64,000 bases of DNA. Origin: Flavobacteriaceae bacterium (GTDB taxonomy: Bacteria; Bacteroidota; Bacteroidia; Flavobacteriales; Flavobacteriaceae). The number at the start of each line of letters is the position of its first letter. Positions within the stretch are counted from its first letter, which is position 1. The notes under the pieces are model-generated. The model ran no database searches. It had not been told where the DNA came from and saw only the letters and a program-made list of their open reading frames with translations. Location of the stretch: contig WUAI01000009.1 in assembly GCA_009827225.1 (NCBI GenBank), positions 21,475 to 85,474 on the forward strand, read 5' to 3'. Shown one piece after another: positions 16,963 to 17,391 of the stretch. The position numbers and the translations under genes are program-made.

Positions 16963-17047
16963 GGAGGAATGGCAGAGTGGTCGAATGCGGCAGTCTTGAA
17001 AACTGTTGAGGGTCACACCTCCGGGGGTTCGAATCCCTCTTCCTCCG
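16963..17047 (+). tRNA. tRNA-Ser (anticodon TGA)
   Basis: ggaggaa acceptor pairs with ttcctcc; anticodon arm cagtct-TGA-aaactg; long variable arm; T arm gggttcgaatccc. Confidence 0.95.
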
Positions 17048-17053
17048 CAAAAG

Positions 17054-17080
17054 AAACCCGCAACGAAAGTTGCGGGTTTT
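17054..17080 (+). terminator. Rho-independent terminator after tRNA-Ser
   Basis: aaacccgcaac-gaaa-gttgcgggtttt. Confidence 0.75.
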
Positions 17081-17092
17081 GTGTTTTCGGAA

Positions 17093-17391
17093 GCAAGTGA
17101 AACTTGTTTCAACTTGCGTAAAAAATACAAAACCGAACCACGCTCATGCGGGGTTGTGGGTTTTATATTTGCCAAGGATTCCCTATATGGGATCAACGCA
17201 GTTAATCCCTGATTTACCTTGCCTTCAGCAGGCTCAAGTCTCGAAAGCTTGCTTTCGGAAGCGAAAGAAAATACAAAACCGAACCACGCATGAGCGTGGT
17301 TGTGAGTATTATGCCCGCCCGTACCGAACGGCACGTTCGGGCGGGCTTGCCTAGGAATCTCTTAATGGGATCAACGCCGTTAATCCCAAAA
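17093..17391. repeat. Two-copy, multi-hairpin repeat element downstream of tRNA-Ser
   Basis: 22-nt perfect repeat aaaatacaaaaccgaaccacgc at 17122-17143 and 17268-17289; both copies end in gggatcaacgc[a/c]gttaatccc; each has several conserved stems (see findings). Confidence 0.85.

Follow-up and report, generated by a model that had tools for sequence, protein, structure and literature searches.

The rtT or tyrT repeats of Escherichia coli (RtT RNA in Rfam) lie in tandem behind a tRNA gene, whose 3' end is copied at the start of every repeat. To our knowledge they are confined to one operon in enterobacteria and consist of direct repeats only. Direct-inverted-direct triplications of about 148, 160 and 148 bp, with spacers of about 30 bp and short homology at their junctions, have been reported from yeast and cancer genomes, where they are attributed to errors of replication (PMC13334657), and the inverted triplications of yeast are flanked by short inverted repeats (PMC4689423). 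Genomic islands restore the tRNA gene that they split and leave a displaced fragment behind (Islander, PMC4383910). tRNA trailers can also serve as small-RNA sponges, 3'ETS-leuZ being the example cited in PMC7154689.

The locus studied here lies downstream of a tRNA-Ser gene in a 64,000-nt stretch of Flavobacteriaceae DNA (hereafter the window). It resembles rtT in that a tRNA 3' end is copied downstream of the tRNA (in 7/30 units of this genome, the window unit having AATCCC only), but many different tRNAs and a tmRNA are involved per genome, the copies are inverted and there is a conserved tip. No Rfam RtT match was found in the window or at 16 other element loci. With small inverted triplications and ODIRA it shares the direct-inverted-direct order at short inverted repeats and arms of the same order of length (PMC13334657, PMC4689423). 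Those are however sporadic mutations of yeast and human cells, whereas the units described here are recurrent, tRNA-anchored and family-wide, and have a conserved, oriented tip. The tRNA/tmRNA site and, at some genes, a displaced 3' fragment recall genomic islands, but the elements measure only about 130-300 bp, carry no genes and contain an inverted copy of trailer and terminator. As with 3'ETS-leuZ, a functional RNA would derive from a tRNA trailer; no inverted duplication is known there, whereas the element has one. None of the repeat and RNA families tested accounts for the making and use of the element, and a literature search on repeats downstream of tRNA genes in flavobacteria returned nothing relevant, most subscription journals lying outside its reach.

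The original prediction described a two-copy repeat of several hairpins at 17093-17391, and both copies are present there. They form the right half of a larger palindrome, which starts within the tRNA-Ser terminator. The fold places the beginning of the unit upstream of the predicted start, at 17075, where the first arm (17075-17088) lies in the T-tail of the terminator. The features of the locus are as follows.

16963-17048, plus strand: tRNA-Ser(TGA), the anchor gene, on whose T-arm, 3' end and trailer the element is templated (ARAGORN, Rfam tRNA).
17053-17090, plus strand: intrinsic terminator of tRNA-Ser, stem at 17053-17080, with a T-rich tail (terminator scan, fold).
17075-17088, plus strand: left arm of P1, GGTTTTGTGTTTTC, in the terminator T-tail (fold; covariation with the right arm in 22 tRNA-Ser elements).
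17093-17117, plus strand: P2 tip hairpin of copy A, GCAAGTGAAA-CTTG-TTTCAACTTGC (fold, alignment, covariation).
17122-17134, plus strand: right arm of P1, AAAATACAAAACC, an inverted copy of the terminator tail (fold, tail test, covariation).
17136-17155, plus strand: P3 hairpin of copy A, stem AACC-A-CGC / GCG-G-GGTT, loop TCAT (RNA and DNA folds).
17158-17172, plus strand: trailer', GGGTTTTATATTTGC, which repeats the tRNA-Ser 3' end and trailer GCAAAAGAAACCC imperfectly and in inverse orientation (read from the sequence; as a class, trailer' was tested across seven genomes).
17189-17209, plus strand: T-stem-derived hairpin of copy A, GGGATCAACGCAGTTAATCCC, made up of inverted ATCCC and CA, then T and direct AATCCC (pattern search, local T-stem test).
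17242-17257, plus strand: P2 tip hairpin of copy B, CGAAAG-CTTG-CTTTCG (sequence, repeat finder).
17268-17280, plus strand: right arm of P1 repeated in copy B (repeat finder).
17282-17301, minus strand: P3 hairpin of copy B, AACCACGC-ATGA-GCGTGGTT, with tail CGGTTTTGTA (terminator scan).
17314-17345, no strand assigned: dispersed 32-bp palindrome CCCGCCCG...CGGGCGGG, unrelated to the unit, which interrupts trailer' of copy B (sequence search, repeat finder).
17367-17387, plus strand: T-stem-derived hairpin of copy B, GGGATCAACGCCGTTAATCCC (pattern search, repeat finder).

In the fold, the two arms of P1, 17075-17088 and 17122-17134, pair with each other, and P3 of copy A occupies the place of the inverted terminator. 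The repeat finder aligned the two copies in blocks of 45 nt (17122-17166 with 17268-17312, 84% identity), 41 nt (17169-17209 with 17347-17387, 85%) and 21 nt (17082-17102 with 17250-17270, 81%). It also found an inverted match of 34 nt at 79% identity (17136-17169 with 17268-17301), which contains the reported inversion of the loop from TCAT to ATGA. Copy B has no left arm and resembles a tandem repeat of the right part of the unit. Right parts are often repeated in tandem, at tRNA-Val and tRNA-Leu as well as here, and this explains copy B. The extra GC-rich hairpin attributed to copy B does exist, but it is the separate palindrome at 17314-17345, which has five further strong copies in this genome (G000:C79:20995, C45:1433, C41:12049, C30:9990 and C5:38113; L039-L043).

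Both copies fold more stably than dinucleotide shuffles of themselves, as RNA with z = -4.3 for copy A (0/200 shuffles as stable) and z = -3.7 for copy B (1/200). The original prediction was right to set this palindromic or structured DNA apart from random spacer. Copy A also folds beyond chance as DNA (z = -4.4), and the two strands fold alike, neither being preferred. At about 130-300 nt the element has no integrase gene in its ORF listing, and the reading frames listed there are overlapping frames of hairpin DNA. A search of the window with Rfam, at gathering and at relaxed thresholds, returned nothing except tRNA.

Within its own genome, the 22-nt block occurs only twice, both times in the window, the T-stem hairpin pattern is strong only at the two window copies and no dispersed 16-22-mer is common to the copies. 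Downstream of the orthologous tRNA-Ser in relatives, by contrast, six loci have the same architecture in differing sequence (L006, L007, L009, L010, L012 and L031), whilst at L004 and L011 tRNA-Ser is followed by a terminator of the same type without the element. A covariance model, R1, was built from copy A and five of these six loci. It matched 114/301 genomes of the same family (E <= 0.01), many with 5-10 copies, so the copies elsewhere that the original prediction had proposed to search for were recovered as an architecture. Across the phylum, R1 matched 15/396 genomes (E <= 1e-4), including other families and classes.

The matches are anchored to tRNA genes. Among the model-search loci examined, 30/39 contain a tRNA or tmRNA gene, and most of the others adjoin a bare tRNA 3' end or a contig end. 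R1 matched 13 places in the window's own genome, and all ten that were checked lie directly downstream of a tRNA or tmRNA gene: Ser (copies A and B), Val-tac, Val-gac, Arg, Phe, Pro, Tyr, Leu and tmRNA. These fold-back repeats are real and recurrent; they are anchored to tRNA genes and belong to Flavobacteriaceae, with outliers elsewhere in the Bacteroidota. At the tmRNA gene (L080, G000:C23) the unit lies behind the gene's terminator.

We then read the regions downstream of tRNA genes in the window's own genome (G000), the same-genus G007, the hit-rich same-family genomes G150, G110, G223 and G033 and the hit-free control G031, with swapped pairs from other tRNAs as the control for a local match. 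Beyond the tip, the local terminator tail, trailer and tRNA 3' end recur in inverted form. In the seven genomes, inverted trailer and tRNA end matched their local counterparts in 40/219 units against 4.4 expected, none of them in G031. For terminator and tail, the local inverted match exceeded the 99th percentile of swapped pairs at 10/30 units in G000, 9/29 in G150, 7/36 in G007 and 0/29 in G031. The terminator tail alone gave a local inverted match in 33/185 units (3.7 expected). Examples from G150 are tRNA-Val (CCACAGCAAAACCCACCTC / GAGGGTTGTTTTGCTGTGG) and tRNA-Met (TACAAAGAAAACCA / TGGTTTTCTTTGTA). The acceptor-stem portion of the inverted copy is poorly preserved.

Units close with the pattern rc(T-stem)-CA-...-T(A/G)-T-stem, which in the window reads GGGATCA...TAATCCC. 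This pattern was found with the exact local T-stem at 21 tRNAs in all (5/30 in the own genome), where swapped tRNAs would give about 0.07, and its arms lie between a few and about 40 nt apart. Beyond it, the tRNA 3' end appears once more, as a third copy in direct orientation, in 7/30 own-genome units and in 3/29 and 3/36 units of two relatives, against 0/29 in the control; at tRNA-Ala and tRNA-His this copy includes the whole terminator. The displaced 3' fragment is clear at L009, L010, L031 and the Ala and His genes, whilst the window unit shows a direct copy, an inverted copy and six bases (AATCCC) of the third. The anatomy and the local templating are shown by these data: every element is templated on the tRNA gene that it follows. 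Two other readings were rejected. A promoter in the right half was considered because TATATTTGC resembles the Bacteroidetes -7 box, but by eye no upstream box lies at the right distance and the motif is the inverted trailer. The tail as a mini-tRNA with its own acceptor stem fitted L031 only.

The stems are preserved while their sequence changes, as originally predicted. In a structure-blind MAFFT alignment of 22 tRNA-Ser elements, every row of which was confirmed in the genomic DNA, 92.3% of cells were paired and double changes occurred at 13/19 pairs. Double-change cells numbered 66, whereas shuffles gave 22 +/- 4 and slid controls 2-16; covariation is therefore strong, and the outcome that would have spoken against the original prediction, neither copies nor covariation, did not occur. 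The tip has an asymmetric internal loop, with GT before and TAA after an apical hairpin. This loop was found on the tRNA strand at 19 tRNA loci in six genomes, for Tyr, Val, Phe, Pro, Ala, Thr, Arg and Ser, and on the opposite strand at 0. GT-[hairpin]-TAA also occurs at L193 and L194, in other families of the phylum. Outside one genus, tips of the same tRNA are no more similar (0.348) than tips of different tRNAs (0.345 and 0.331), which repeated formation or rapid turnover of units would lead one to expect. At tRNA-Pro(tgg) of G150 (L124, L125) the terminator hairpin itself bears the GT/TAA tip directly (GAAAAAGCC...GGCTTTTTC), so that tip and terminator can be one structure.

Read 5' to 3', a unit runs from tRNA 3' end, trailer, terminator and T-tail through the tip hairpin P2 into inverted copies of the same parts, with the tail first, a terminator-like hairpin next, then the trailer and finally the tRNA end as far as into the T-stem; some genes have the third, direct copy after that. 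One local segment is thus present in direct, inverted and direct copies with short turn-around spacers. From these sequence comparisons we favour, at slightly less than even confidence, an origin in hairpin-directed template switching at tRNA genes, which would have made small inverted triplications that were kept as mirror-image, or two-way, terminators. During DNA synthesis the growing strand would fold back at a hairpin past the terminator and copy over its own product as far as the palindromic T-arm. There a second fold would allow synthesis to resume, leaving direct-inverted-direct copies, and subsequent template switching between the arms would maintain their complementarity. The inverted half would then act as an opposite-facing terminator, formed by P3 and a T-rich tail on the minus strand. 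Such a pair would insulate the tRNA gene from transcription on both sides, which would favour retention of the unit. Terminators are predicted on both strands, at 17053-17080 on the plus strand and at 17301-17282 (P3 of copy B) on the minus strand; P3 of copy A has mismatched pairs and was not called. Both the making by template switching and the terminator role are what we infer. A mechanical origin alone does not predict a conserved, asymmetric tip in one orientation, and the tRNA-sense GT/TAA motif suggests a further role of the tip as a recognition site, whether in the transcript or as single-stranded DNA. The poorly preserved acceptor-stem portion of the inverted copy also counts against the favoured origin, as does the different terminator of the third copy at L009, L031, tRNA-Leu-tag and tRNA-Gln, where insertion of a foreign unit fits better.

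The main rival to template switching, and the second-best reading, is a structured sense-strand RNA, which we consider possible though rather unlikely. tRNA 3' trailers reached by terminator read-through would fold into P1, a GU/UAA internal loop, the P2 tip (with a CUUG, CUCG or UUUA loop), P3 and a stem of trailer with trailer', and this RNA would bind a protein or RNase and control tRNA 3' processing, or act as a small RNA. The strong covariation and the conserved, tRNA-sense GT/TAA loop favour it, and 3'ETS-leuZ offers a precedent. However, template switching between arms homogenises inverted repeats, according to PMC8604942, and could thereby mimic covariation. Selection on a plus-strand RNA further predicts more G.U than A.C among imperfect pairs. 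G.T did exceed A.C in hand-listed tip stems (28 to 3) and on A3, but the excess shrank in unbiased sets, to 10:0 for P1 (p = 0.04 after allowing for the fixed T-tail), 10:4 for tip stems (p = 0.18) and 14:11 for the trailer stem (p = 0.69), and was thus not used as proof of RNA function. These sets replaced a first strand test (132:115), which was contaminated by ordinary terminators because units of the control genome had been counted; a stricter detector with a mirror control lost most elements through their A/T-richness and gave way to the tail and trailer tests. Nor does Rfam hold a match, and a structured RNA alone would leave the copying of the tRNA 3' end and T-stem unexplained. The pairing of the outer-stem arms is explained by copying, whilst the tip may be under selection.

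An undescribed tRNA-parasitic mini-element of Bacteroidota, with a hairpin core of about 25 nt and the conserved GU/UAA loop, would settle behind tRNA terminators and copy the end of the host tRNA gene inversely, on arrival or through a dedicated enzyme. We hold this to be unlikely; if true, every copy would be custom-made for its host gene, much like a rolling hairpin without fixed arms of its own. We give still less credence to mini-elements inserted in the T-arm by a site-specific recombinase, with the tRNA restored and its displaced 3' end on the far side. That reading would account for the far-side copies of the tRNA 3' end at several genes and for tandem arrays of units (L064), and the same tRNA site appears to host larger integrated elements, since a bare tRNA 3' end without a neighbouring tRNA body precedes some units (L050, L058, L074). 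An inserted block would however bring its own sequence, whereas the inverted half reproduces the trailer and terminator of the local gene, outside any attachment core, and the variable T-stem arm spacing leaves no fixed crossover core. Island-type insertion accounts for the displaced 3' ends, yet not for the inversion of trailer and terminator. The tip-motif pattern also had no match in IMG/VR viral contigs, and spread by viruses was rejected. REP/REPIN palindromes moved by a Y1 (RAYT) transposase, akin to the REP/IRU-like mobile palindrome first proposed, are very improbable. Like the element, REP, BIME and REPIN sequences are short extragenic hairpins with compensatory changes that occur in clusters and, in REPINs, often in pairs (PMC2817692, PMC3116915). 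They are defined by a dispersed common sequence and a RAYT, neither of which was found here: sequence is local to each tRNA, no 16-22-mer is dispersed, and own-genome matches lie only at tRNA or tmRNA genes. Y1_Tnp (PF01797) is absent from this genome and from 19/24 element-rich genomes, and is not associated with the element across 301 genomes (50/64/67/120, odds ratio 1.4, p = 0.18).

Other sequences were observed at tRNA loci during this work. Two copies of the 32-bp palindrome are placed precisely in the D-loop of a 22-nt 5' fragment duplicated from tRNA-His and tRNA-Ala, with the intact gene downstream, which points to a mirror phenomenon at tRNA 5' ends. Upstream of an intact tRNA-Met(cat) (L099), the D-loop of a duplicated 5' fragment is likewise interrupted, by the repeat TCCTTCGACAGGCTCAGGACAGG. 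At L092 (Thr), L093 (Asn), L105 (Gln) and L112 (Leu-tag), other repeats (GAGAAGTTTATCCTGAGC..., CTGGCCCC...GGTCC) separate the intact tRNA from a second copy of its 3' end, which makes the T-loop a place where several repeat families accumulate. Integrase-like reading frames, read by eye, lie directly downstream of tRNA-Ser at L023, L028 and L030; together with the bare 3' ends they indicate that the tRNA-Ser site appears to host larger integrated elements. Two loci of G007 (L149, L148) have many tRNA genes packed in phage- or plasmid-like arrays of about 1.5 kb. At L118:2859-2927, beyond a fold-back array behind tRNA-Val, a Flavo-1 match barely above the Rfam cut-off belongs to another structure.

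These elements call for caution with covariation statistics, which can flag structured RNAs where the arms may be copies of each other. The dozens of tRNAs in each genome are natural replicates for telling copying from selection. Where the element is abundant, between a quarter and a third of the tRNA transcription units in a genome carry downstream an inverted copy of their own ends that matches the gene in question. Hairpin-directed inverted triplication, a sporadic error in yeast and tumours, would thus be recurrent at bacterial tRNA loci; alternatively, an unknown recombination or RNA system would be exploiting the tRNA genes of these bacteria.
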